Shown here: positions 16,487 to 32,379 of the stretch, piece by piece | Layout of the letters: every line of letters begins with the position of its first letter | How positions within the stretch are numbered: position 1 is the stretch's first letter | NCBI GenBank assembly: GCA_035461305.1 | Contig: DATHVN010000237.1 | Span: 1-35,658, forward strand | DNA from: Euzebyales bacterium | GTDB lineage: Bacteria; Actinomycetota; Nitriliruptoria; Euzebyales; JAHELV01 | Direction of reading: 5' to 3' | Length of the DNA stretch: 35,658 bases | Notes under the pieces: generated by a model | What the model saw: the letters and a program-made list of their open reading frames with translations, nothing else | Database searches by the model: none | What the model was told of the DNA's origin: nothing | Made by a program: the position numbers and the translations under genes

Positions 16487-17527
16487 TCACGGCAGCAGCA
16501 GGCACGAGTCGCCGAACTCGTGCCACAGGTACGGCCCGGCCAGCGCGCCGTCGTAGGCGCGGTCGACCAGCGCGGCGCCGGCGACCGCCTCGAGCAGCAG
16601 CAGGTGGGACGCGTCGGCCTCGTGCCATCCCGTCACCAGGCCGTCGACGATCCGGGCGGGTCGGTCCGGACCGAGCAACAGGTCGGTCCACCCTGCTCCC
16701 GGCGTCAACCGTCCGTCGACGCCGGCGATCGTCTCCAGCGCCCGCGTGACCGTCGTGCCGACGGCGACGACCCGCCCGCCGGCCCGCCTGGTGGCGCTCA
16801 CCTGCGCGGCCGTGGTCGCAGGGACCTCGTACCACTCGTCAACGGGGGGCTCGTGGGCCTCCAACGACGACACGCCGGCGTGCAGCGTCACCGGCGCGAC
16901 GGCTACGCCGTTCCGCACGAGGTCGGTGACCATGCGATCGGTGAACGGGCGCCCGGCCGAGGCCATCTCGGCGCTGCCGGGTCGCATCGCGAACACCGGC
17001 TGGTAGGCCGACAGTGGCCACCGGCGGACGGGTCTCCCGTAGGTGATCGGGCGGCCGTGCACGGCCATGTAGCCGTCGACGGCACCCCCGGGTACGACGA
17101 CGCGTGCCCGCCACAGCCGGCGGGCGTCGGTGACCGGCCGCACGAGCTCGACGCACGCGTCGCCGGGCAGGTCGACCACGTCGCCGACGTCACGGTCGAG
17201 GACCGGGCCGTCGCCGTCGGCGCGGCGGAGCTCGACGACCCAGGCGCCGTCCGCCTGCGCCGTTGCGAGGTGCACAGTGACGGGGCGGCCGTCGAGGGCG
17301 CCGTCGACCGCTGCGGGGCGGGTGGCGGACGTGTTGACGACGACCAGGTCGCCGGGACGCATGAACCGCGGCAGGTCGCCGAAGCGCACGTGATCGATGC
17401 GCTCCGGGCGCGCGACCAGCAGGTTCACGCCGTCACGCGGCAGGCCCCGGCGCTCCGGCGGGTCGCTCGCGATCCGGTCCGGCGGGACGTCGAAGCGGCG
17501 GGACGGCCGGACGAGCGTCGGCGTCAT
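16487..17527 (-). CDS. queA: QueA-like S-adenosylmethionine:tRNA ribosyltransferase-isomerase
   Basis: A 346-residue protein of normal QueA length. Hallmarks: LVVVNTSATRPA (about 61-72, the N-D/T-T-x-V-x-P-A strand), a central YQPVFAMRPGSAEMASAGRPFT region (the SAEMPSAGRPFT motif), VTLHAGVSSLEAHEPPVDEWYEV and GGRVVAVGTTVTRALE (the V-A-V-G-T-T-x-x-R-x-L-E signature). QueA transfers and isomerises the ribosyl group of SAM to preQ1 in tRNA, giving epoxyqueuosine. Motifs are recognisable but somewhat diverged. The start ATG overlaps the upstream SDR stop by four bases, so the two genes form an operon behind a SoxR-type promoter. No tgt, queG or queC-F gene is in the window, so the tRNA role is inferred from family only. 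Confidence 0.85.
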   Translation of the reverse strand: MTPTLVRPSRRFDVPPDRIASDPPERRGLPRDGVNLLVARPERIDHVRFGDLPRFMRPGDLVVVNTSATRPAAVDGALDGRPVTVHLATAQADGAWVVELRRADGDGPVLDRDVGDVVDLPGDACVELVRPVTDARRLWRARVVVPGGAVDGYMAVHGRPITYGRPVRRWPLSAYQPVFAMRPGSAEMASAGRPFTDRMVTDLVRNGVAVAPVTLHAGVSSLEAHEPPVDEWYEVPATTAAQVSATRRAGGRVVAVGTTVTRALETIAGVDGRLTPGAGWTDLLLGPDRPARIVDGLVTGWHEADASHLLLLEAVAGAALVDRAYDGALAGPYLWHEFGDSCLLLP

Positions 17528-18780: not shown

Positions 18781-20160
18781 TCAGCTGGTCGTGGTGAGGT
18801 CCAGTTCGACGGCGCGGTCGTACTCGTCGTCGATCAGCACAGGCGTTCGGCCGGCACGCGCCAGCAGCGACGCGGCGATCGAGGCGCGGTAGCCGGTGCG
18901 GCAGTGGACCCACACCTCGCCGGTCGGCACGTCGGCCATCCGACGCTCCAGTCGGTGCAGTGGCACGTGGACCGCGCCCTCGACGCGGCCCTCAGCCCAC
19001 TCGTCGTCGCGGCGTACGTCGAGGATCGCCGGCATGTCGCTGCCCCTGCGCACCGCGGCCAGCGCGGAGAAGTCGACGATGCGGTATGAGCCGCGTTCGC
19101 CGCCGTCGGCGTAGGCGTCGACGCCACCGGCCGCCGCCGCCGCGGGGCGGTCGATCCCGATGCGCACCAGCTGGCGCTGTGCCGCGGCGATCTCCTCCGG
19201 CGTGTCACCGACCAGCGTGATCGGCACGTTCCACGGCACCAGCCAGCCGACATACGTCACGAACGAATCGCTGAGCTCGACGTTGATCGTCCCCTGCAGG
19301 AAGTCGACCGCGTAGACCGTGCGGTCGCGCAGGTCGACGACCCACTCGCCGGCGTGGATGCGCGCCTGGATCTCGACCGCGTCCGCCTCGACAGGCGGCG
19401 ACAGATCGATCGGCTCGGGGCCCAGCCGGTTTCGGGGCGCCATGTGGACGTAGTAGCGGGGATAGGCATCGAGCCCACCGAGCAGGAGCTCGACGAACCT
19501 GTCCTCGTCCAGGGTGGTCAGGGCCATGTTCGCGCGACGCTCGTCACCGATGGTGGACATCTCGTCGCCATCGTCACCGTCGGCGTCGCTGGCCACCGAC
19601 GAGCAGAAGCTGCCGAAGCCGTGGGTCGGCAGCACGGCGACGTCGTCGGCCAGCAGGTCGGCGATCCTGCGGACCGATCGGTGCTGGCGCCGGGTGAGCT
19701 CCTCGGCCATGGCGCGCGAGATGAGGTCGGTCCGCCCGACCGTGCCGTACAGCATCGAGCCGCCAGTGAAGACCGCGACGTCGCGACCGTCGGCGTGCGC
19801 GACGTAGGACAGGTGGGTCGGGGTGTGGCCGGGTGTGTGAAGCGCTCTGATCGACAGGTCGTCGCCGATCTGCACGACGTCGCCGTCGATCAGCGTCTCG
19901 TGGTCGAAGTCGACCTCGTCGTCGGCGTTCAGGAGGTACGCGGCGCCGGTCGCGCGTGCCAGCTGGTAGCCACCCGTGACGTAGTCGTTGTGGATGTGGG
20001 TCTCGAACACGTGGGTGATGCGGACGCCACGCTCGTCCGCCAGGTCGAGCACGCGATCGATGTCGCGCTGCGGATCGACGACGGCGGCGACCGCGCCGTC
20101 GGTGATCAGGTAGCTGCGGTCGCCGAGGCTCGTCGTCTCGATGGTGATGATGTCAACCAC
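18781..20160 (-). CDS. MBL-fold persulfide-dioxygenase-like protein with two rhodanese domains
   Basis: A 459-residue protein from GTG 20160 with AGGAG 6 bases upstream. Residues 1-230 form an ETHE1-type metallo-beta-lactamase domain with the metal motif THIHNDYVTGG (His55, His57, Asp59), LHTPGHTPTHLSYV (second metal histidine) and a late histidine in LPTHGFGSFC. Members oxidise glutathione or other low-molecular-weight persulfides to sulfite with iron and O2. Residues about 265-350 are a degenerate rhodanese domain without an active cysteine. Residues about 365-455 are an active one, with Cys420 in VHCRTGYRAS. The gene follows sulP with an 8-base overlap and is divergent from the molybdoenzyme operon, so it probably feeds sulfite to it. 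Confidence 0.88.
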   Translation of the reverse strand: MVDIITIETTSLGDRSYLITDGAVAAVVDPQRDIDRVLDLADERGVRITHVFETHIHNDYVTGGYQLARATGAAYLLNADDEVDFDHETLIDGDVVQIGDDLSIRALHTPGHTPTHLSYVAHADGRDVAVFTGGSMLYGTVGRTDLISRAMAEELTRRQHRSVRRIADLLADDVAVLPTHGFGSFCSSVASDADGDDGDEMSTIGDERRANMALTTLDEDRFVELLLGGLDAYPRYYVHMAPRNRLGPEPIDLSPPVEADAVEIQARIHAGEWVVDLRDRTVYAVDFLQGTINVELSDSFVTYVGWLVPWNVPITLVGDTPEEIAAAQRQLVRIGIDRPAAAAAGGVDAYADGGERGSYRIVDFSALAAVRRGSDMPAILDVRRDDEWAEGRVEGAVHVPLHRLERRMADVPTGEVWVHCRTGYRASIAASLLARAGRTPVLIDDEYDRAVELDLTTTS

Positions 20161-21705
20161 GCTGCGCTCCTTGCTGTTCGTGGCGGCGGCCGCGCTGCTC
20201 ACCGCAACGGTCGGGCATGGTGGGCTCGTCGAGCGTCCGTTCAACGAGCGGGCCGGACCGGTCAAGCGCGTGCAGCGCCGTCGGCACGTCCGGATCGATC
20301 CGCCCCGCCAGCGTCGCGGCCACACCGGCCCGCTGCAGAGCATCGTGGACCGGGCCGCGCACCGTGGCCGGTCGGAGCTGCACGGAGGGCGAGGCCAGCG
20401 CGCGGTCGAGCGCGGCGACGGCGTGCACGCCGGCCGCGTCGATGGCGCCGACGGCGCTCATGTCAGCGATCATCGCGTCCGTATCGGGCCGGCCGGCCAG
20501 CAGGCCCTCGATCCACGTCTCGACGTGCCGGCTGTTGGCGTAGAACAACGGGCCGTCGACGCACACGATCGCGACCCGTGGGTCGCCGACGGTGTCGTAA
20601 CGGTCCCGGTTTGCGGTAGATGTCCGCACCCCGCACCCGCCCGAGCTCAGCGATGTGCGGCCGACCGGTGCGCACGAGGAACAACGCGATGCTGACGACG
20701 ATGCCGGCGACGATGCCCTGCTCGACGCCGACGACCACCGTGACCAGCGCCGTGAGCAGCCACGTGGCTCCGTCCCAGTGGTCGACCCGCCAGGTGCTTC
20801 GCGCGTCGACCACGTCGACAGACCGACGACGGCGACCACGACGACGGCCGCCGGCACCACAGTGGGCAGGACCGCCAGCGCAGGCGCGGCCACCGCCACG
20901 GCCAACGCGACGACCGCCGCGGTCACGAGGCCGGCCGGGGGCGTCCGCGCACGCGCATCGAAGTTGACGGCGGTGCGTGAGAACCCACCGGAGACGGGGA
21001 ACGCCTGGAACGGCCCGGCCGCCAGGTTGGCACCGCTGCTGGCGAACAGCTTCTGCGTGGCGTCGACCGGCTGGTGCATCCGCACGGCCAGAGCGCGGGC
21101 CACGCTGATGCCCTCCAGGTAGGCCAGCAGCGCGATCGTGGCCGCGCCCGGCAGCAGCGCGGTGGCGGCCGGGGGATCGATCCCTCGCAGTGACGGCATC
21201 GGCAGCCCCGCCGGCACCGTGACGAGCACGGCGATGCCCGCAGCCTCGAGACCCAGCACCACGATCGCGAGGCCGGCACCGAGCACGACCAGCAGGGCGA
21301 CCGGGGGGCGCGAGCGGCGCCACCGGGCGAGTCCGAGGAGGGCGACCGCCAGGACGCCGAGCACGGTGGGACCGTGCGCCTCGGGGAGCTGCCGGGCGAC
21401 GGCGGAGATCCGTGCGATGATGGTCTCGGCGAGCAGCGCTGCCAGGCCGGCGTACGAGGCCGGATCGCCACCCGCGAGCGGCCCGACCGTCGATGTGGTC
21501 AGCAGCGACACGATGACCACCGGCCCGACGTGCCGAGCACGGCGTAGACCACGAGCGGCACCGTGGCCGTGACCGCCGACATGCCGGCGAGCGCCGCGTA
21601 CGCCATGGGCCTGGGGATCAGCATGGCCGCGACGGTGAGCCCGGCGACCACGTCGTCCCGCAGACTGACGCGGTCCAAGCGGCGAAGCCAGTCGATCAGC
21701 GGCAC
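20153..21705 (-). pseudogene. SulP-family anion transporter with STAS domain, three frame breaks
   Basis: Start GTG 21705 (GAGGG upstream). Frame A reads RLDRVSLRDDVVAGLTVAAM then YAVLGTSG. Near 21527 it must change to frame B, which reads GPVVIVSLLTTSTVGPLAGG and onwards through the membrane domain to VVVVAVVGL. Near 20819 one G is missing (CT for CTGG), and a third frame carries VDVVDARSTWRVDHWDGATW to RVRGADIYR. Near 20611 one extra A (AAA for AA) returns the sense to frame B (NRDRYDTVGDPRVAIVCVDG), whose C-terminus is a STAS domain with ADMSAVGAIDAAGVHAVAAL. Apart from these breaks the protein is complete and well conserved: 10-12 membrane segments, then STAS. SulP proteins carry sulfate, bicarbonate or other anions. 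It is either very recently inactivated or affected by sequence errors. Confidence 0.85.
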
Positions 21706-21753
21706 ATGCCCTCACGCGGCCGGATGGGGTGAGATCGCCGGCCACCATGGCGG

Positions 21754-21785
21754 TTGACACCCTGTAGCGGCCGTGCTCATATAGT
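21754..21785 (+). promoter_or_regulatory. possible promoter of the molybdoenzyme operon
   Basis: TTGACA (21754-21759) matches the -35 consensus. TATAGT (21780-21785) resembles a -10, but the spacer is 20 bases; TCATAT (21777-21782) gives 17. An over-long spacer would suggest an activator. It is the only AT-rich patch between sulP and the Fe-S/NrfD gene. Confidence 0.4.
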
Positions 21786-21800
21786 ACGCACATTTCGTAC
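21784..21800. promoter_or_regulatory. inverted repeat GTACG-N7-CGTAC, candidate operator
   Basis: GTACG (21784-21788) and CGTAC (21796-21800) form a 5-bp dyad with a 7-base centre. It overlaps the possible -10 and the start region of the operon transcript. It may be bound by the GntR-type regulator at the operon end, but no direct support exists. Confidence 0.35.
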
Positions 21801-21842
21801 GGATGTCTCGGCCACCCAACGGGCGGCCGCTCGGAGCGGTGC

Positions 21843-23444
21843 ATGAGCGTGGTGCCGGAGGGTCCGATCCGGGCGCTGCCGCTGGTCGACGGCGAGGCGC
21901 GCAGCCCCCGTCTGGTCAAGGTGCTCGACCAGACGACGTGCATCGGATGCCACGCCTGCACGACGGCGTGCAAGTCTGAGCACGAGGTCCCGGTCGGCGT
22001 CACGCGCACCTACGTCAAGGCGGTCGACGTGGGCGAGTTCCCGCACGTTCGCCGCAGGTTCCAGGTGACCAGGTGCAACCAGTGCGCAGACGCACCGTGC
22101 GTGACCGCCTGTCCCACGTCCGCGATGTTCCAACGCGCCGACGGCATCGTCGACGTCGACAAGCAGGCCTGCATCGGCTGCAGGGCCTGCATGGCGGCGT
22201 GCCCGTACGACGCGATCTTCATCAACCCCGACGACCACGCAGCCGAGAAGTGCAACCTCTGTGCGCACCGGATCGACATGGGCCTCGAGCCGGCGTGCGT
22301 CGTCGTGTGCCCTGTCGGGGCCATCCTGGTCGGCGACGTCAACGATCCGATGTCGGCGGTCGCCCAGGCGATCGGGCGCAGCCCGACGGCCGTGCGGCGG
22401 CCCGAGAAGGGCACCCGACCCGGGGTCCACTACAAGGGCGCGAGTCAGGCGACGCTGGACCCGCTCGCCGCCCACCGCCCCGACGTCGACATCTTCGCGT
22501 GGGCCCAGCAGCACCCGCAGACCGACCCGCACCGCATCAACGCCGGCGTGCCGATCGACCCCGTCGACCAGCGCGACGGCACGGGCGCGCCCACCACGTC
22601 GTCGGCCGCGGCGCTGCTCAGCTACGACGTCGGCCACGCCGTGCCGTGGGACTGGCGCGTCGGCCTGTACACGTGGACCAAGTCGATCGCCGCGGGCGTG
22701 TACCTGGTCGCCGCCACGCTCGTGCTGCTGGGACGGCTCGACGGCGACGGGGCGCTGTGGCGCTGGGTCGTTCCCCTGCTCGCCGTGACCTTCCTGGCGC
22801 TCACCGGGGCGATCCTCATCTGGGACCTCGAGCACCCGGCGCGCTTCCACTACGTCTTCACCCGCCCCCAGTGGCGCAGCTGGCTGGTCCGTGGTGGCGT
22901 GATCATCACCTCGTTCGGCGCCGTGCTCGCCGTCCACCTCGCGCTCGCCGCGGTCGGAGCCACGGACGCGCAGACCGACCTCACGGCGCTGGGCGTCCCG
23001 GCGGCGCTGCTCACCGCCGTGTACACGGCGTTCCTCTTCGCCCAGGCCCGGGCGCGTGACCTGTGGCAAAGCCCGCTGCTGCCACCGCACTTCGCGGTGC
23101 AGGCTGTGCTCGCCGGCGCCGCGGTGCTGCTGCCGCTCACCGCGTGGCTCGCGCCCGATTCGGCCCCAACCGTCGCGCTTGCGCTGGCCGGTGGCGCAGT
23201 CGTGCATCTGCTGCTCGTCGCGGGCGAGATCACGCTGACCCATCCGACCCACCACGCACGGCTGGCGGCCCACGCCATGACCGCCGGACGCCACGCTCGG
23301 CTGTTCCGGGCCGGCCTCGTGCTGGTCGCGCTCGGGGCCGCCGCGCCGTGGCTCGGGATCGGCGTCGCCCCGCTGGCACTGGCCGGCCTGCTCGCCCACG
23401 AGCACGTGCACGTCCAGGCCGGGCAGTCGGTGCCGCTCGCGTGA
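21843..23444 (+). CDS. fused four-cluster ferredoxin / NrfD-type membrane subunit (SoeB-SoeC-like)
   Basis: A 533-residue fusion. Residues about 25-165 are a DMSO-reductase-type electron-transfer subunit with four [4Fe-4S] motifs: C33-x2-C36-x2-C39-x3-C43, C78-x2-C81-x4-C86-x3-C90, C110-x2-C113-x2-C116-x3-C120 and C137-x2-C140-x11-C152-x3-C156. A polar linker spans about 170-270. From about 277, eight membrane segments follow, with WDLEHPARFHYVFTRPQWRS WLVRGG after helix 2. That is the NrfD/PsrC quinone-site region, and the protein ends with HVQAGQSVPLA. Normally these are two proteins. Fusion would fix the electron wire from the molybdoenzyme to the quinone pool. The start ATG 21843 has CGGAGCGG upstream. 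It precedes the molybdoenzyme by 39 bases. Confidence 0.92.
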   Translation: MSVVPEGPIRALPLVDGEARSPRLVKVLDQTTCIGCHACTTACKSEHEVPVGVTRTYVKAVDVGEFPHVRRRFQVTRCNQCADAPCVTACPTSAMFQRADGIVDVDKQACIGCRACMAACPYDAIFINPDDHAAEKCNLCAHRIDMGLEPACVVVCPVGAILVGDVNDPMSAVAQAIGRSPTAVRRPEKGTRPGVHYKGASQATLDPLAAHRPDVDIFAWAQQHPQTDPHRINAGVPIDPVDQRDGTGAPTTSSAAALLSYDVGHAVPWDWRVGLYTWTKSIAAGVYLVAATLVLLGRLDGDGALWRWVVPLLAVTFLALTGAILIWDLEHPARFHYVFTRPQWRSWLVRGGVIITSFGAVLAVHLALAAVGATDAQTDLTALGVPAALLTAVYTAFLFAQARARDLWQSPLLPPHFAVQAVLAGAAVLLPLTAWLAPDSAPTVALALAGGAVVHLLLVAGEITLTHPTHHARLAAHAMTAGRHARLFRAGLVLVALGAAAPWLGIGVAPLALAGLLAHEHVHVQAGQSVPLA

Positions 23445-23483
23445 ACCGACCGCCCACGACCCCACAGCCACACGGAGCCCACG

Positions 23484-26429
23484 ATGGAACGTGACCTCGA
23501 CGGGTTGAACGCCCGCGTGTCGGCAGCGCGGGCCGCGACCGAGGCACGCGGTGAGACCTTCTACCCCGGACCCAGCAGGGTGCACCTGGCCATGTTCCCA
23601 CCGAAGGAACGGTGGGACGACTGGGTCGAGTACGACGCGAGGACATGGCCACGTAAGGACGAGCGGCGCTTCATGCTGGTGCCGACGACCTGCTTCAACT
23701 GCGAGGCGGCGTGCGGCCTGCTCGCCTACGTCGACCGCGAGGCGCTGCAGATCCGCAGGTTCGAGGGCAACCCCGAGGCGCCCGGATCACGCGGCCGCAA
23801 CTGCGCGAAGGGACCCGCCACCATCACCCAGGTGACCGACCCCGACCGCATCCTGCATCCGCTGCGCCGCGTCGGGGAACGCGGTGGCGGACGGTGGGAG
23901 CGCGTGTCGTGGGACGACGCGCTCGACGGCATCGCCGCGCGCATCCGTGCCGCCATCGTCGAGGAACGCCGCGACGAGGTCGTCTACCACGTTGGGCGCC
24001 CGGGCGAGCTCGGGTTCACCGAGGAGGTCCTGGCGGCTTGGGGCGTCGACGGCCACAACTCCCACACCAACGTCTGCTCCTCGGGGGCGCGTGCGGGCTT
24101 TCAGTTCTGGTGCGGACAGGATCGGCCGAGCCCCGACCACGCCAACGCCGAGGTCATCCTGCTGATCTCCAGCCACCTGGAGGCCGGGCACTACTTCAAC
24201 CCCCACGCGCAGCGCATCATGGAGGGCCGGGTCAACGGCGCGAAGCTGATCGTCATGGACGTCCGGCTGTCCAACACGGCGACCCACGCCACCCACTGGC
24301 TGGCACCCTGGCCGGGATCGGAGGCGGCGATCTGCCTCGCGATCGCGAACCACCTCATCCAGACCGGCGCGTACGATCGGGAGTTCGTCCGTCGCTGGTG
24401 GAACTGGGAGGAGTACCTGCGGGCCGAGCACCCCGACCGCGACCCGGCGTTCGAGGTGTTCACCGAGCTGCTCGGGACGTTGTACGCCGAGTACACCTTC
24501 GCGTTCGCCGCGGCCGAGTCCGGCGTCGACGTCGCGACCCTGGAAGCCGTGGCCGCCGACGTGGCGGGCGCTGGCAGGCGGCTGTCGACCCACAACTGGC
24601 GGTCGGCTGCCGCGGGCAACGAAGGCGGGTGGCAGGTGGCCCGCACGCTGTTCCTGCTCAACGCGCTGCTCGGTGCCGTCGCGGTGCCCGGCGGGTTCTA
24701 CCCGAACGGCTGGAACAAGGTGTCACCGAAGACGCCGGTCAACCCAGACCGTCCCGCGGTCTGGAACGACCTCCACCTGCCGCTGGAGTACCCGCTGGCC
24801 ATGTACGAGCTGTCGTTCCTGCTGCCACACTTCCTGGCCGAGGGCCGCGGCCGCATCGACACGTACTTCACGCGGGTCTACAACCCGGTATGGACCAACC
24901 CAGACGGGTTCAGCTGGATCGAGGCGCTGACCGACCACGAGAAGGTGGGCTGTCACGTGGCGCTGACGCCGACGTGGAACGAGACGGCCTACTTCGCCGA
25001 CTACGTCCTGCCGATGGGGCACAGTTCCGAGCGCCACGACCTCGTCAGCGGCGAGCAGTACGACGGGCAGTGGATCGGGTTCCGCCAGCCCGTGCTGCGT
25101 GTCGCACGCGAACGGCTGGGCGAGGCGGTGACCGACACCCGCCAGACCAACCCGGGCGAGGTGTGGGAGGAGAACGAGTTCTGGATCGAGCTGACGTGGC
25201 GAATCGATCCCGACGGGTCACTGGGCGTCCGCCGCCACTACGAGGCACCCGACCGACCCGGCCAGAAGATGACGGTCGACGACTACTACGGCTGGGTGTT
25301 CAACCATGGCGTGCCGGGCCTGCCTGAGGCCGCCGCCGCGCAGGGGCTCACGCCGCTGGCCTACATGCGCCGCTACGGGGGCTTCGAGGTCAGCCGGGGC
25401 GTCGGGCAGATCCACGAGGAGCGGGTGCCCGACGCCGAGCTGGACGACGTCCGCGTCAGTGAGCTCGGTCGGGTCTACAGCCGGGCGCCGACGCCGGACA
25501 TGAGCTACGCGACGGGCGCGAGTCCCGACCCCGACGCCGAGGGCCGCCGCGCCGCGGGTGTCATGGTGAACGGGGTGGTGCGACGCGGGTTCCCGACCCC
25601 GTCAGGCCGTCTGGAGTTCTGGTCGTCGACGCTCGCGGCCTGGGGCTGGCGCGAGTACGCGCTGCCGACCTACATCCGCAGCCACGTGCACCCGGAGCGA
25701 CTGGCGGACGACGAGGTGCCGCTGATCTCGACGTTCCGGCTGCCCGTCCAGATCCACACCCGCAGTGCGAACGCCAAGTGGCTCAACGAGCTGGCTCACA
25801 CGAACCCGCTGTGGATCCATCCCAGCCACGCCCGCCGGCTCGACATCGTCACCGGCGATCTCGTCCGCGTCGAGACACGCGCCGGACACTACGTCGTCAA
25901 GGCATGGGTGACCGAGGGCATTCGTCCGGGCGTCGTCGCCTGCAGCCACCACATGGGCAGGTGGAAGCCGCGGGGCGAGACCGAGGGTCACGACCGACCG
26001 CGCCAGCGCATGCAGACGTCCGACGTGACGCTGGACAACCAGGGCAGCCGCTGGCGGATGGCTGACAGGTCGCCGCACCGGCCGACCGGCGACGACCCGG
26101 ACCTGCGTCGCATCTGGTGGTCCGACATCGGGGTGCACCAGAACATGACGTTCCCGGTGCATCCTGATCCGGTCTCGGGACAGCACTGCTGGCACCAGGC
26201 GGTGCGGATCCGTCCTGCCGGCCCGTCCGACGCCTACGGCGACGTCGTGGCCGACACCGATCGGATGCGCGAGATCTACCGCGAGTGGCTCGCGAAGACG
26301 CGGTCGGCCGCCATCGTCTCGCCCACCGGGGAGCGGCGCCCGCACTGGCTCCAGCGGCCGCTCCGGCCTCAGCGTGCGGCGTGGGCGCTGCCGCCCGACC
26401 GGGCACGAGCGCCGGACGCCGCCCAGTGA
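23484..26429 (+). CDS. molybdopterin oxidoreductase catalytic subunit (SoeA-like)
   Basis: A 981-residue bis-MGD enzyme. The N-terminal [4Fe-4S] cluster ligands are C70-x2-C73-x3-C77-x29-C107. The predicted Mo ligand is Cys198 in NSHTNVCSSGARAGFQFW. LISSHLEAGHYFNPHAQRIM, VMDVRLSNTATHATHWLAPW (cofactor) and a late domain IHTRSANAKWLNELAHTNPL with WIHPSHARRLDIVTGDLV (MGD-binding beta barrel) complete the family. There is no Tat signal, so the enzyme is predicted to be cytoplasmic. That argues for the sulfite-oxidising SoeA type and against periplasmic polysulfide or tetrathionate reductases. Its size is also near that of SoeA. Neighbours (Fe-S/NrfD fusion, chaperone, TauE exporter, persulfide dioxygenase) agree. 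ATG 23484 has GGAG upstream. The substrate remains inference. Confidence 0.88.
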   Translation: MERDLDGLNARVSAARAATEARGETFYPGPSRVHLAMFPPKERWDDWVEYDARTWPRKDERRFMLVPTTCFNCEAACGLLAYVDREALQIRRFEGNPEAPGSRGRNCAKGPATITQVTDPDRILHPLRRVGERGGGRWERVSWDDALDGIAARIRAAIVEERRDEVVYHVGRPGELGFTEEVLAAWGVDGHNSHTNVCSSGARAGFQFWCGQDRPSPDHANAEVILLISSHLEAGHYFNPHAQRIMEGRVNGAKLIVMDVRLSNTATHATHWLAPWPGSEAAICLAIANHLIQTGAYDREFVRRWWNWEEYLRAEHPDRDPAFEVFTELLGTLYAEYTFAFAAAESGVDVATLEAVAADVAGAGRRLSTHNWRSAAAGNEGGWQVARTLFLLNALLGAVAVPGGFYPNGWNKVSPKTPVNPDRPAVWNDLHLPLEYPLAMYELSFLLPHFLAEGRGRIDTYFTRVYNPVWTNPDGFSWIEALTDHEKVGCHVALTPTWNETAYFADYVLPMGHSSERHDLVSGEQYDGQWIGFRQPVLRVARERLGEAVTDTRQTNPGEVWEENEFWIELTWRIDPDGSLGVRRHYEAPDRPGQKMTVDDYYGWVFNHGVPGLPEAAAAQGLTPLAYMRRYGGFEVSRGVGQIHEERVPDAELDDVRVSELGRVYSRAPTPDMSYATGASPDPDAEGRRAAGVMVNGVVRRGFPTPSGRLEFWSSTLAAWGWREYALPTYIRSHVHPERLADDEVPLISTFRLPVQIHTRSANAKWLNELAHTNPLWIHPSHARRLDIVTGDLVRVETRAGHYVVKAWVTEGIRPGVVACSHHMGRWKPRGETEGHDRPRQRMQTSDVTLDNQGSRWRMADRSPHRPTGDDPDLRRIWWSDIGVHQNMTFPVHPDPVSGQHCWHQAVRIRPAGPSDAYGDVVADTDRMREIYREWLAKTRSAAIVSPTGERRPHWLQRPLRPQRAAWALPPDRARAPDAAQ

Positions 26430-27289
26430 TGGAGCTGCTGCGCGCGCTCGGCGCGCTCGCCGAGGAGCCAGGGCCGGCGCACGAACCGCTCGCCGCGCTG
26501 CTCCACCTGCCGCGCGCACCCGACGCTGCGGCGTTCACCGACTGCTTCATGTTCAACCTGTACCCGTACGCCAGCGTGTATCTGGGCGCCGAGGGCAAGC
26601 TGGGCGGCGCCGCGCGTGACCGCGTCGCGGGCTTCTTCCGGGCGCTGGGGGCGGTGCCGGACACCGAACCCGACCACCTGACCCTGCTCGTGACTGCCTA
26701 CGGGCAGCTGCGGGACGTGCCGGCCGACGGTCCGGCCGGCCACGCCGCCGCCGCACTGCTGCACGAGCACCTGGTCCCGTGGCTCCCGCTGTACCTCGCC
26801 CGCGTGCGTGCCCTCGCACCGGCGCCCTACCCGCAGTGGGCGCAGGTGCTGGCCGACGTGCTGCTGGCTGACGCCGGAGGCGTCGCCGATGCGGTGGACC
26901 CGCCCCTGCACCTGCGTGACGCACCTGCGCTGCCCGATCCGCGCGCCGCCGGTCACGACGCGTTCGTCGACGGCCTGCTGAGCCCTGTGCGGGCGGGCGT
27001 GATCCTGACCGGCCGGGACCTGTTGCGGGCGTCCCGCGAGCTGCGGCTGGGCCTGCGTGTCGGTGAGCGGCGGTTCGTGCTCGACGCGCTGTTGGCCCAG
27101 GACGCCGCCGCGACGTTGCGCTGGCTGGCCGGGCACACGCGCACGACCGGCGACGCGTGGGCGCCGTGGACCGAGGTGGCACCCACGACGGCGACGTGGT
27201 GGTCCACGCGCGCCGACGCGACCCTGGGGCTGCTGCACGAGCTGGCACTGGAGGTCGACGGCGTCCACCCGGCGGAGGTCGGTGGATGA
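26429..27289 (+). CDS. TorD/DmsD-family molybdoenzyme maturation chaperone
   Basis: A 286-residue, mostly helical, Ala/Leu-rich protein. Its start ATG shares one base with the molybdoenzyme stop (TGATG). The segment TEPDHLTLLVTAYGQL (about 74-89) is the family motif (E-x-D-H-L), and EHLVPWLPLYLARV (about 114-127) is the second conserved helix with the W-L/P-x-F-like pattern. Members bind the apo-catalytic subunit, protect it until the molybdenum cofactor is inserted, and stay in the cytoplasm. It is longer than typical TorD (about 200 residues) by a C-terminal extension of about 100 residues with TGRDLLRASRELRL and RTTGDAWAPWTEVA. Cotranscription with its client gene is certain from the overlap. 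Confidence 0.82.
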   Translation: MELLRALGALAEEPGPAHEPLAALLHLPRAPDAAAFTDCFMFNLYPYASVYLGAEGKLGGAARDRVAGFFRALGAVPDTEPDHLTLLVTAYGQLRDVPADGPAGHAAAALLHEHLVPWLPLYLARVRALAPAPYPQWAQVLADVLLADAGGVADAVDPPLHLRDAPALPDPRAAGHDAFVDGLLSPVRAGVILTGRDLLRASRELRLGLRVGERRFVLDALLAQDAAATLRWLAGHTRTTGDAWAPWTEVAPTTATWWSTRADATLGLLHELALEVDGVHPAEVGG

Positions 27290-28101
27290 GCAGCCTGGTC
27301 CTCGCCGCCCTGTCGTTCATCGCGGCCGGCATCGGCGCGCTCGGTGGGCTCGGCGGCGCGGTCCTCCTGGTCCCCGCGCTCGTGGTCGCCGGGATGGCGC
27401 CGGCCACGGCCGCGCCCCTCGGCCTGCTGACGGTCGCCGCCAGCTCACTGTCGGCCTCCTCGACGCAGCTCGACGAGGACACCGTCAACCATCGGCTGGG
27501 CGTGACGTTGGAGGTCTCGGCCAGCGCCGGCGCCGCGGCCGGCGCGTTGCTGTCGGCCGTGGTGAGCGCCACCGTCCTTCAGTGGGTGCTGGCCGTCGCC
27601 GCCATCGGGGCTGGCATCGCGAGCGCTGCCCGCGGCGGGTCACGTCATCGCGAGACACGCGACACGGGCGCGATGCCAGGCGAGCGCCGTGGCCGCCTGG
27701 CCGGCGCCTACCAGGAAGACCGGGGTGTGATCGAGTACCGGGCCCGCAATGTGCCCGCCGGTGTCTCGGTGATGGGTGCCGCGGGTCTGATCGCGGGCAT
27801 GACCGGCACGAGTGGGGGCTTCATCAAGACCCCCGTGATGACCGAGCTCATGCGCGTGCCGATCAAGGTCGCCGCGTCGACGACGGTGTTCATGGTCGGG
27901 GTCACCGCGGCGTCGGCGCTGCTGGTGTACGCCGTCCAGGGCCGGATCGACCCGGCCGCGGCTGGCACGGTCGTGGTCGGTGGGCTCGCCGGCGGGCGCG
28001 CGGGCGCGATGATGCAGGCCCACCTGCCGCCGCTGCTCGTCCGCCGCTTCCTCGGCGCGATCCTCGTACTCGTCGGTGTCGTCCTACTGGTCCGCGACTG
28101 A
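27286..28101 (+). CDS. TauE/SafE-family sulfite or sulfur-anion exporter
   Basis: A 271-residue transporter with two halves, each beginning with a Gly-rich motif: SFIAAGIGALGGLGGAVLLVP (about 9-29) and GAAGLIAGMTGTSGGFIKTP (about 165-184). These are the hallmarks of TauE/SafE (PF01925). About eight membrane segments are predicted. A polar loop at about 108-160, with many charged residues, separates the halves. The start overlaps the chaperone stop by four bases (ATGA), so it is coupled to the molybdoenzyme operon. Family members export sulfite, sulfoacetate or other sulfur organics. In this operon, removal of toxic sulfite or of sulfate product is the natural role. Confidence 0.87.
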   Translation: MSSLVLAALSFIAAGIGALGGLGGAVLLVPALVVAGMAPATAAPLGLLTVAASSLSASSTQLDEDTVNHRLGVTLEVSASAGAAAGALLSAVVSATVLQWVLAVAAIGAGIASAARGGSRHRETRDTGAMPGERRGRLAGAYQEDRGVIEYRARNVPAGVSVMGAAGLIAGMTGTSGGFIKTPVMTELMRVPIKVAASTTVFMVGVTAASALLVYAVQGRIDPAAAGTVVVGGLAGGRAGAMMQAHLPPLLVRRFLGAILVLVGVVLLVRD

Positions 28102-28382
28102 TGTCCCGGTCACGCAACCCCGCACGACGCCGGCTGAGCGCGGTCCTGAACCGCGAGGTCCCGGTCGTGCTCGCGCTCGGGGCCGTGGCATGGCTGGCCC
28201 CCGGCCCCGTGTCACGCCTCGCGGGATGGGCGATGGTGGGAGTGCTGATCATCACGCCGATCGCACGGGTCGGCTGGCTGGCCACGCGCTGGATGGGGTT
28301 CGACCGTCGCTTCGCCTGGGCCGGTTGGGCGCTGCTCAGCGCGGTCGCCTCGGGAGCGGTCGCGGCGGTGATGCTCAGATGA
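28101..28382 (+). CDS. DUF1634-like small membrane protein
   Basis: A 93-residue protein whose ATG shares one base with the TauE stop (TGATG). A basic lead (MSRSRNPARRRLSAVLNRE) is followed by three membrane segments near residues 21-38, 40-56 and 72-92. The middle one ends with VGVLIITPIARVGWL, a segment resembling DUF1634, whose members are encoded next to TauE/SafE genes. It may be an accessory subunit of the exporter. Assignment rests on this segment and on context. Confidence 0.7.
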   Translation: MSRSRNPARRRLSAVLNREVPVVLALGAVAWLAPGPVSRLAGWAMVGVLIITPIARVGWLATRWMGFDRRFAWAGWALLSAVASGAVAAVMLR

Positions 28383-28407
28383 CCGACGCATGGAGAGGAC
28401 CCCGCTG

Positions 28408-29211
28408 ATGGCCGGCGCCGAACCGCTGTGGGAGCAGGTGCTCAACGACATCAAGCGCAGGCTGGCGTCCGGTGAGATCCGCGACCGGTTCCCGACGGAC
28501 CGCGAGCTGGTCGAGACGTACGGCGTCAGCCGGCACACCGTGCGCGAAGCCGTCCGCCGCCTCCACGCCCTGGGTGTGATCGAACGCGAGCGCGGACGCG
28601 GCAGCATCGTCCGCCACACCGCGTTCGTCCAACCGCTGGGCACCCTCTACAGCCTGTTCCGCGAGATCGAGGCGCGAGGGGTCACCCAGCGGAGCACGGT
28701 CCTGTCCTTCGAAGCCTGCCCGGACCCCGTCGCCGCGGCCAGGTTCGGCCTGCCCGCCGACACCGCCATCGTCCACCTCGAACGCGTCCGGCGTGCAGGC
28801 GACCAGCCGCTGGCGCTCGACACCGCCTGGCTGCACCCCGAGGTCGGCCTGTCCGTCCTGGGCGCCGACATGACCCACACGGCCCTGTACGACGAGATAG
28901 AACGGCGCGCCGGCGTGCGGATCACCGGCGGCGAGGAGACCATCAGCGCGCGCATCCCCGACGCGCAACTGCGCGACGTGCTCGAACTCGAGGAGGACGA
29001 GGCGCTGTTGCGCATCGACCGGACCGGCGAGGCCGACGGGCGGGTCGTCGAGTGCCGCGTCACCCTGGTCCGGGCGTCGCTGTTCGCACTCGTCATGCGC
29101 TGGCCGAGCTACGGCGCGGTGACCTCGCGGTTCTCACCGGACGGCGACGGCGGCGGCGGGCTGTCCGCACCGCCCGCCGAGGACGGCGACAGCCCAGGCA
29201 CCATGGCCTGA
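28408..29211 (+). CDS. GntR/HutC-family transcriptional regulator
   Basis: A 267-residue regulator. The GntR winged helix spans 1-75 (LWEQVLNDIKRRLASGEI, then FPTDRELVETYGVSRHTVRE AVRRLHALGVI as separate helices). The UTRA ligand-binding domain spans about 85-245, with FEACPDPVAAARFGLPADTA, LERVRRAGDQPLALDTAWLH and the late VVECRVTLVRASLFALVMRW, the standard UTRA core with the E-x-R segment. A Gly/Pro-rich tail follows. I choose ATG 28408 over 28390 because GGAGAGGA lies about 10 bases upstream. Placed 25 bases after the DUF1634-like gene, it is probably cotranscribed and may control the operon. The ligand is unknown. Confidence 0.9.
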   Translation: MAGAEPLWEQVLNDIKRRLASGEIRDRFPTDRELVETYGVSRHTVREAVRRLHALGVIERERGRGSIVRHTAFVQPLGTLYSLFREIEARGVTQRSTVLSFEACPDPVAAARFGLPADTAIVHLERVRRAGDQPLALDTAWLHPEVGLSVLGADMTHTALYDEIERRAGVRITGGEETISARIPDAQLRDVLELEEDEALLRIDRTGEADGRVVECRVTLVRASLFALVMRWPSYGAVTSRFSPDGDGGGGLSAPPAEDGDSPGTMA

Positions 29212-30812: not shown

Positions 30813-30909
30813 GCACGACCGCATCCGCCGGCGATCCGCCGGACGCGGCGGTGTGGCACCCTTGTCGCACCCGCGGTGCAGCGGGCACCAGTGCGACGAG
30901 GAGGCGGCC

Positions 30910-32379
30910 ATGCCCGACCACGGTGTCCGGTTCCCGATGGTCGACGGGCGCCGCAGCACCCAGCGCACCGGTCGCGACGTGTTCGCGGCCGCGGCGGCCG
31001 CGGTCGACCCCGGCCTCGCCGCCGAGATCCGCGCCGAGCGGTCGTGGCGCAGCGCCTACCCTCGTCACCTGCGGCTGCTGACCGAGGCCGCCGCGGCCTC
31101 GCCGGCCGCCGGGCTGTCGGTCGCACGGTCCGGACTGGACCGCGTGCACACGACGTTCGAGCACACCGACGGGGCGACGACCATGCCGGTGCCGACCGCC
31201 GTCGCGACGCACGCCGGCGCGATCCCGCCGACGCACACCGCGGCGGGGGCCGGCACGGCTGACGACGAGCTCGTCATCCCCGTCGACGGCCGGAAGTTGC
31301 GAGGCGACGCCCTGCTCGCGACGATCGACGGGTGGGTCGCCCGTGGCGTCGTCGAGCCACCGCTGCGTGCGGCGATCGGGGACCTGGTCGAGCGTCCCGG
31401 GTGGCTCGACCTGCGCGGCACGTGGTTCGCTGTGCTGGGAGCCGGCGCCGAGATGGCCCCGACCGCCCAGCTGCTGCGTTGGGGCGCCGACGTCGCGGCC
31501 GTTGACCTGCCGAGCGGCGACGTCTGGTACCGGCTCGAACGGGCAGCGGTCGCCGGCACGGGCCGCCTGCACGCGCCGGTGGCGGACGACGGCAGGCCGC
31601 CGGGCGCCGACCTGATCGTTGCCGCGCCGGCCGTCCGTGCCTGGCTCGCGTCGCTCGACCACCCCCTGGTCATCGGCAACTACGGCTACGCCGAAGGCGC
31701 CACGTTCGCCAGGCTGTCGGTCGCCGCGGACGCGGTGATCGCGAACCTGCTCGAGCACCGCGACGACCACGGTGTGGTGTGCCTCGCCACGCCGACCGAC
31801 GTGTTCGCCGTGCCGGCGCACGTGGCGACGGCCACGCGCGCCCGCGCGCACAGCATCCCGGCGCGCACGCTCGCGCCCGTGCTGCGCGCCGCGAGCGGCG
31901 GCCGGCTGCTGCAACCCAACCACCGCACCACCGTGCGCACCGCGGCTGGTGACGAGGTGGGCATCGCCGACAGCCTCGTCCCCCAGCAGGGGCCCAACTA
32001 CGCGTTCGCCAAGCGCCTGCAGCGCTGGCGCGCCCTGACCGCCCACGCCGACGGTCGCTTCGCCGCCGTCCACGTGGCACCACCGACCCGGACCCGGTCG
32101 GTCGTCAAGAACCGCGTGCTCGCCGCCGCCTACGGCGGTGCGTCGCTGTTCGGCGTCGAGGTCTTCGCGCCGGAGACCAGCCGCGCGCTCATGGCGGCGC
32201 TGGTCGTCCACGGCCTGCGGACGCATGCGGCTGGACACGCGCCGACACCACCGACCGACGAGCACGTGCTGACCGCCGCCGCGGCCCACGGCGGCCTGTG
32301 GCGGGTCGCGTGGGAGACGCGCACGGCCTTCCCGCTGGTGATCGTCCGGGGTGCACCCGCGTTGTTACGGCGCGGGTGA
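30910..32379 (+). CDS. 489-residue protein of unknown function with a Rossmann-like segment
   Basis: From ATG 30910, with GAGGAGG 6 bases upstream, a 489-residue soluble protein without signal peptide or membrane segments. I do not recognise the family. Visible: residues about 30-60 helical; TWFAVLGAGAEMAPTAQLLR followed by WGADVAAVDLPSGDVW (about 173-208) resembles the beta-alpha-beta and acidic second strand end (V-D) of a dinucleotide-binding fold, with G-A-G-A-E instead of the strict G-x-G-x-x-G. GNYGYAEGATFARLSVAADA, LATPTDVFAVPAHVATAT and KRLQRWRALTAHADGRF are conserved-looking blocks. The C-terminus FGVEVFAPETSRALMAALVV suggests an amphipathic helix. It may be an NAD(P)- or SAM-dependent enzyme. 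It is followed by a DUF4126-like gene 100 bases later. Confidence 0.8.
   Translation: MPDHGVRFPMVDGRRSTQRTGRDVFAAAAAAVDPGLAAEIRAERSWRSAYPRHLRLLTEAAAASPAAGLSVARSGLDRVHTTFEHTDGATTMPVPTAVATHAGAIPPTHTAAGAGTADDELVIPVDGRKLRGDALLATIDGWVARGVVEPPLRAAIGDLVERPGWLDLRGTWFAVLGAGAEMAPTAQLLRWGADVAAVDLPSGDVWYRLERAAVAGTGRLHAPVADDGRPPGADLIVAAPAVRAWLASLDHPLVIGNYGYAEGATFARLSVAADAVIANLLEHRDDHGVVCLATPTDVFAVPAHVATATRARAHSIPARTLAPVLRAASGGRLLQPNHRTTVRTAAGDEVGIADSLVPQQGPNYAFAKRLQRWRALTAHADGRFAAVHVAPPTRTRSVVKNRVLAAAYGGASLFGVEVFAPETSRALMAALVVHGLRTHAAGHAPTPPTDEHVLTAAAAHGGLWRVAWETRTAFPLVIVRGAPALLRRG

Follow-up and report, generated by a model that had tools for sequence, protein, structure and literature searches.

An operon coding for a membrane-anchored molybdenum complex is located on contig DATHVN010000237.1 of an Euzebyales bacterium (assembly GCA_035461305.1; Actinomycetota), the whole analysed stretch of which, 35,658 nucleotides in length, is termed the window here. 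Its genes and those beside it were placed by gene calling and Pfam matches (Table 1). The operon starts with a fusion of an iron-sulfur (Fe-S) protein to an NrfD-type membrane anchor; the Fe-S part contains 16 cysteines which, read from the sequence, form four cluster motifs, and its best solved match is 2VPW_B. The catalytic subunit of the MopB family carries a CxxCxxxC...C cluster site and a cysteine at the molybdenum-ligand position. It shares base 26429 with the gene for a TorD-type chaperone, which in turn overlaps a TauE/SafE permease gene by four bases (27286-27289), while base 28101 is common to the permease gene and that of a small hydrophobic protein. These start-stop overlaps, the four-cluster fusion, the MopB subunit, the chaperone, the permease, a GntR regulator and a neighbouring protein with metallo-beta-lactamase (MBL) and rhodanese domains had all been recognised in an original prediction made from the sequence alone, and all of these are confirmed. 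The small protein had been described as DUF1634-like, but a search as permissive as E 5 gives no match to that family; among the 32 clustered stretches it is present in four loci of the genus, where it adjoins the TauE gene. Homologues of the GntR/UTRA regulator are encoded near the complex in seven loci of the set, the window included.

Table 1. Genes of the molybdenum-enzyme operon and its flank in the window
Feature	Position	Strand	Basis or remark
MBL-fold + rhodanese protein, type III persulfide-dioxygenase-like	18781..20160	-	Pfam PF00753, PF00581
SulP-family anion transporter remnant	20153..21705	-	two pieces in different frames; broken or mis-assembled
Four-cluster 4Fe-4S (PsrB/TtrB/NrfC-like) + NrfD-type quinone anchor fusion, 533 aa	21843..23444	+	PF13247, PF03916
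Catalytic molybdenum-bis(pyranopterin guanosine dinucleotide) (Mo-bisPGD; MopB) subunit, 981 aa	23484..26429	+	N-terminal [4Fe-4S] site
NarJ/TorD-type chaperone, 286 aa	26429..27289	+	PF02613
TauE/SafE permease, 271 aa, candidate sulfite/sulfonate exporter	27286..28101	+	PF01925
Small hydrophobic protein, 93 aa	28101..28382	+	no significant Pfam match
GntR/UTRA regulator, HutC-type	28390..29211	+	Pfam

The original prediction held that the catalytic subunit lacks a twin-arginine translocation (Tat) signal and belongs to a cytoplasm-facing complex iron-sulfur molybdoenzyme in a sulfur setting, and both points are supported. Defined as a twin arginine followed by an uncharged hydrophobic core, a Tat signal is found in none of 30 sequences of the family, the window MopB included (three of them, L021, L031 and L036, with cut N-termini), nor in any of nine SoeA-type sequences. 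A loose twin-arginine pattern occurs in 11 of the 30, in none of them with a hydrophobic core behind it. Among the references the signal is present in the Ttr (6/6), Arx/Arr (5/6), Dms-type (6/6) and Phs (1/1) proteins and in 10 of 12 members of a proteobacterial sister family typified by Azoarcus sp. KH32C, the remaining two of which likewise show a TRRTFLK motif by eye. An excess of Arg/Lys residues lies on the Fe-S side of the membrane in 21 of 22 fusions longer than 480 aa (the exception is L039). Hydropathy gave six or seven rather than eight helices in 16 of these 22 fusions, and a miscount of this kind can shift the charge parity. In the window protein the loops carry 12 such residues on the Fe-S side versus one on the other, and 11-20 versus 0-2 in the six fusions in which all eight helices were found; the NrfD proteins of two Tat-type relatives show the reverse pattern (2 versus 10 and 5 versus 15). 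By its missing Tat signal and its charge pattern, the complex looks to face the cytoplasm. In a survey of NrfD-like anchors both termini of PsrC are placed outside (PMC8076601), and the arrangement here appears to be turned round relative to PsrC, a turn which the N-terminal fusion allows. The complex shares the NrfD-type anchor and a PsrB-like Fe-S domain with PsrABC and PhsABC, and differs from them in its predicted orientation and its fused B and C parts, PhsA carrying a Tat signal and PsrC having its termini outside.

On account of the missing Tat signal, the four-cluster Fe-S part and the NrfD part, the complex had been matched to SoeABC, the cytoplasmic sulfite:quinone oxidoreductase, and it was set beforehand that a MopB tree should group the window protein with SoeA. 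This identification is not upheld. As SoeA references, MopB frames of 964-1032 aa without a Tat signal, each beside a PF04976 protein, were taken from eight genomes, and a ninth (L217) was added by similarity; the genomes are those of Sulfuricella (2), Sulfuritalea, Hydrogenophilus thiooxidans, Thiohalomonas, Hydrogenophilales, a Chromatiaceae metagenome-assembled genome and two gammaproteobacteria. The identity of these references is thus deduced from synteny, and the SoeA proteins of Allochromatium vinosum and Aquifex are outside the tree. The window MopB matches the SoeA-type proteins at 27-30% identity over some 260 residues (E 5e-30 to 2e-26). Its matches to members of the proteobacterial sister family from those genomes are longer and closer, spanning most of the window protein at 35-37% identity (E 9e-121 to 6e-106). 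In a quick tree of 78 sequences the actinobacterial, Thermomicrobium, haloarchaeal and Sulfurovum MopB proteins form one clade (support 100) sister to the proteobacterial family (99), and SoeA adjoins TtrA (92). A more careful tree of 28 sequences again yields a clade of their own (100/100), the same sister group (100/99) and SoeA with TtrA (81/95), and the approximately unbiased (AU) test on these sequences rejects a joint clade with SoeA (p-AU 0.00164); the 28 were picked once the 78-sequence tree had been seen, while the question of SoeA predates it. The tree program warned of long branches that meet, among them those of the sister family with the window family and of SoeA with TtrA, so that such joins may be false, and the sister-group placements are less sure than the separation from SoeA.

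The membrane anchors tell the two systems apart as well. The fusion matches the NrfD family PF03916 and shows no match to the DmsC-type family PF04976, and all 28 genomes with the enzyme lack a DmsC-type anchor. SoeC probably falls under PF04976, judging from synteny and PMC8076601, in which SoeC is listed from Proteobacteria, Clostridia and Aquificae and no Actinobacteria appear. SoeABC of Allochromatium and Aquifex is alike in being cytoplasmic and without a Tat signal, in its MopB, four-cluster Fe-S part and NrfD-superfamily anchor, and in its sulfur-oxidation setting; it is unlike the window complex in having a catalytic subunit of another clade, a DmsC-type rather than NrfD-type anchor and three separate subunits instead of fused B and C parts. 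A true SoeABC, for which the cytoplasmic location, the Fe-S part, the sulfur context and a MopB of SoeA-like length would speak, is therefore extremely improbable in view of the AU test, the low and short identity to SoeA, the fused NrfD-type anchor and the absence of DmsC. A MopB survey keeps a bSreA/SoeA lineage apart from PsrA, PhsA and SrrA (PMC10100899). The PF04976 loci of the phylum gave DMSO-reductase-like matches and became the control set described below, and plasmid matches from Phaeobacter and Variovorax, considered as SoeA, were set aside as they are without Soe-type neighbours; a further plasmid match, from Caballeronia, lies in a record that carries no annotation. A second kind of B-C fusion is seen in loci L090-L094 (genomes G032, G039, G009, G188 and G315), where frames of 578-692 aa combine a DmsC match with an Fe-S part and adjoin a MopB frame in four of the five.

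The original prediction had also named two outcomes that would speak against it, a grouping of the catalytic subunit with formate, arsenic or nitrate enzymes and homologous operons devoid of sulfur genes. The Arx/Arr and TtrA references, assigned with NCBIfam models below their cut-offs, each make up a separate clade that does not include the window MopB, the homologous operons do hold sulfur genes, and the tree contained no enzymes named for formate or nitrate. The proteobacterial sister family resembles the window system in its sister catalytic subunit and in its set of MopB, NrfD, Fe-S and TorD genes. It is unlike it in being exported by a Tat motif, in its separate B and C subunits, in a two-component system encoded divergently at most of the loci viewed, and in the replacement of the third cluster cysteine by Asp in the two sequences viewed (CHVCNIQDG). 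The gene order in its Azoarcus KH32C locus (L025:5939-14252) is FeS-NrfD-MopB-TorD-three small genes-FeS-small gene; the name ArxA was considered for this complex and dropped, ArrA-model (NF041714) proteins lying on another branch and the gene order being different. The sister family was met in beta- and gammaproteobacteria, at L025 and at 65 further loci (L099-L163); the two-component system beside it is of the sigma-54 type and comes with a PhnD/SsuA-like binding protein.

The enzyme is a distinct and widespread family, which a label such as SoeABC or PhsA would hide. MopB homologues at E 1e-60 or better are encoded in 28 of the 150 genomes searched, its own genome counted in, with 87-88% identity within the genus and 56-68% in other families of the phylum. 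In a plasmid collection, homologues with 50-60% identity occur in Thermomicrobium roseum, on pRHL3 of Rhodococcus jostii RHA1 and in five haloarchaea, and lower ones in Sulfurovum mangrovi (37%), in which the gene is broken and its first part carries a Tat motif, and in Azoarcus sp. KH32C (about 31%). Searches of the open-access full-text literature found no paper describing this complex.

The sulfur context of the complex is strong. The neighbourhood set comprised 27 actinobacterial stretches (the window and 26 further loci) with 395 called genes; they represent 26 of the 28 genomes, the short contigs of G048 and G061 being left out. Sulfur-type genes, counted without any member of the rhodanese cluster shorter than 300 aa, make up 60 of the 395 and occur at least once in 25 of the 27 stretches, which are mutually related and on which the gene clusters themselves were defined. 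In the control set of 12 loci around DmsC-type anchors (131 genes, 10 genomes, called with a slightly different gene-finder version; 11 loci with a MopB match), sulfur-type families are represented by none of the genes. The partners vary from lineage to lineage; those found among the 27 stretches are MBL (16), SulP (16), DsrE (7), TauE (6), SQR-like (6), TusA (5) and FCSD-like (3) proteins, where SQR-like denotes Pyr_redox matches and FCSD-like a sub-threshold FCSD match. A comparable setting extends beyond this set: pRHL3 of R. jostii carries DsrE-TusA-(FeS-NrfD)-MopB-Mrp as one run with several MBL genes nearby, and a haloarchaeal Halomicrococcus plasmid encodes rhodanese-TauE-(FeS)-MopB-MobA-anion permease. 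Upstream of the latter cluster, at L239:2269-4059, lies a gene for a protein with a 5'-nucleotidase C-terminal domain, possibly SoxB-like. On a Natrinema plasmid Mrp is found near the complex but no named sulfur gene, and in Thermomicrobium the neighbours are not of sulfur type, except for an adjoining metal-sensitive-type regulator. Thermomicrobium roseum is reported to up-regulate an hdrABC-tusA-dsrE cluster (PMC6776052), and soeABC was present in every proteobacterial genome with such an hdr cluster that was analysed (PMC6397845).

Four of the short proteins that clustered with the rhodaneses, those that were tested, are ArsR-type regulators by Pfam, and in one case the regulator is joined to a rhodanese domain. 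These regulators, together with the wide variation of substrates among MopB families and the ability of TauE-type permeases to carry sulfonates too, would fit an enzyme for a substrate other than a simple sulfur species, such as arsenic, selenium or an organic sulfonate, whose sulfur neighbours detoxify the same stress. Arsenic and selenium genes are absent from the recurring neighbour clusters named by Pfam (several clusters being unnamed) and the Arx/Arr-type references occupy other branches of the tree, which leaves this explanation improbable. An automatic annotation would instead label the enzyme phsA, a thiosulfate/polysulfide reductase: PhsA is the best NCBIfam model for the window MopB, at 191.7 bits far below the cut-off of 694, and a soda-lake study assigns genes labelled phsA to Egibacter and Nitriliruptorales actinobacteria (PMC6704655). 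The single PhsA in the tree, which holds no PsrA, joins elsewhere with weak support, the signal and charge patterns argue for a cytoplasmic enzyme, and oxidative sulfur genes adjoin it, in the aerobe R. jostii and the haloarchaea too. A reductase is judged distinctly improbable.

The main rival is that the complex turns TusA- or DsrE-bound or low-molecular persulfide sulfur directly into sulfite, as a molybdenum counterpart of sHdr or rDsr, with TauE exporting the sulfite. TusA and DsrE genes adjoin each other near the complex in L030, L033, L034, L038 and L048, and in R. jostii they are contiguous with the fusion and MopB genes; sulfite as a product would make the TauE gene of the operon easier to explain, and 2VPW, a thiosulfate/polysulfide reductase, is among the closest solved homologues. 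TusA and DsrE are, however, not nearby in 20 of the 27 stretches, the window included, and to our knowledge no Mo-bisPGD enzyme catalyses a direct persulfide-to-sulfite reaction. Direct oxidation of persulfide is thus considered a minor though appreciable possibility.

The MBL-rhodanese protein was foreseen as the source of sulfite. The longest open reading frame of its gene reaches 20343, and the start is probably a GTG near 20160, since two same-genus homologues are called at 453 and 455 aa. The closest structures in the PDB are 3TP9 and 3R2U, the latter presumably CstB of S. aureus. Like these CstB-like, type III persulfide dioxygenases and SCO0618, the window protein combines MBL and rhodanese domains and keeps the active-site cysteine of the rhodanese (HCRTGYR). 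It differs in an incomplete 2-His-1-Asp iron site, in which both His ligands are kept and Gly (TGGSML) stands where 3R2U and 3TP9 have the Asp. Among the 19 MBL proteins of the set, 11 are of the Gly type and eight have Asp; the second MBL-rhodanese protein of the same genome is of the Gly type as well. Gly-type proteins with 51-55% identity are found on three Streptomyces plasmids, in operons that combine MBL-rhodanese, TauE and 'metal-sensitive regulator' genes. These operons resemble in kind the SCO0618 circuit of S. coelicolor, which comprises a CsoR-like factor, a persulfide dioxygenase, a rhodanese and a sulfite transporter and in which SCO0618 has a measured persulfide dioxygenase activity (PMC7533328). 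Conversion of persulfide to sulfite by the window protein is thus plausible. TGGS or SGGS in place of the TGD iron-ligand motif characterises an MBL-rhodanese subfamily whose members are encoded in sulfane-sulfur operons on Streptomyces and Rhodococcus plasmids too (window 18781-20160; L022, L026, L028-L030, L033, L034, L038-L040 and L252-L256).

The MBL gene had been described as divergent from the operon, and the strands agree; a SulP gene on the minus strand, which had been overlooked, lies between them and fills most of the gap. It contains at least one frameshift in this contig, and it is either broken or mis-assembled, because its two pieces match an intact homologue in different frames. 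This homologue, of 564 aa with Sulfate_transp and STAS domains, occupies the same place in the same-genus genome G002, whereas the loci of the complex in two other same-genus genomes, G001 and G003, gave no SulP match. Elsewhere in the window, positions 16487-17527 code for a QueA-like protein (150 bits against an NCBIfam cut-off of 324) beside a short-chain dehydrogenase gene. Positions 30853-32379, downstream of a response-regulator gene, code for a protein of about 500 aa without a Pfam match that is kept in two same-genus loci (L026 and L028).

Taken together, chances appear evenly balanced that the product of the operon is a molybdenum complex, anchored in the membrane and facing the cytoplasm, which oxidises an inorganic sulfur compound, most likely sulfite, and passes the electrons to quinone. 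Sulfite is proposed as the substrate, with about even confidence, since the neighbouring genes encode proteins that produce or carry persulfide sulfur and sulfite; the direction of electron flow, the quinone as acceptor and the roles of TauE, SulP and GntR are inferred likewise. Sulfur-transfer and dioxygenase proteins, encoded nearby or farther away, would form sulfite from persulfide sulfur, and the molybdenum subunit, matured by the TorD-type protein, would most likely oxidise it to sulfate. From the molybdenum the electrons would pass the MopB cluster and the four clusters of the fusion, five [4Fe-4S] clusters in all, before they reach a quinone, probably menaquinone, at the NrfD part. A surplus of sulfite, or a sulfonate, may leave the cell through TauE; SulP, whose gene is broken here, may transport sulfate or another anion.

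Several observations weigh against sulfite oxidation by this complex. As SoeA is not a close relative, sulfite cannot be carried over as the substrate by homology, and the literature searched reports no activity for any member of the family. The iron-ligand Asp is missing from the MBL protein of the window and from each of its three matches at E 1e-8 in the same genome. A Mo-co_dimer protein of the sulfite-oxidase (SUOX) type is encoded in 15 of the 28 genomes; this includes that of the window, so that the complex need not be the sole sulfite oxidase. Genome-wide, DsrE2 is only weakly associated with the enzyme (15/28 genomes with it versus 43/122 without, Fisher p 0.087). A complete persulfide-to-sulfate locus is accordingly not established, given an MBL protein without the Asp ligand and a separate Mo-co_dimer protein in the genome.

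Tentatively, and with somewhat less than even confidence, the complex is proposed to represent a family in its own right, made up of cytoplasmic sulfur-compound:quinone oxidoreductases with sulfite as the likeliest substrate, in which a Psr-type NrfD complex has been turned round and its Fe-S and membrane parts fused, independently of SoeABC. It may supply the sulfite oxidation that is missing in many actinobacteria without SoeABC, and perhaps also in Thermomicrobium and in haloarchaea that lack SoeABC. If so, surveys based on SoeABC would overlook a sulfite oxidase of the cytoplasm in some of the actinobacteria and haloarchaea, or would count the enzyme as a thiosulfate/polysulfide reductase and reverse its place in the sulfur cycle. 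The family would also provide a second, independent NrfD-superfamily complex with its catalytic side toward the cytoplasm; with the orientation of this second inverted case fixed by the fusion, the coupling of the anchor to proton movement would therefore become testable.

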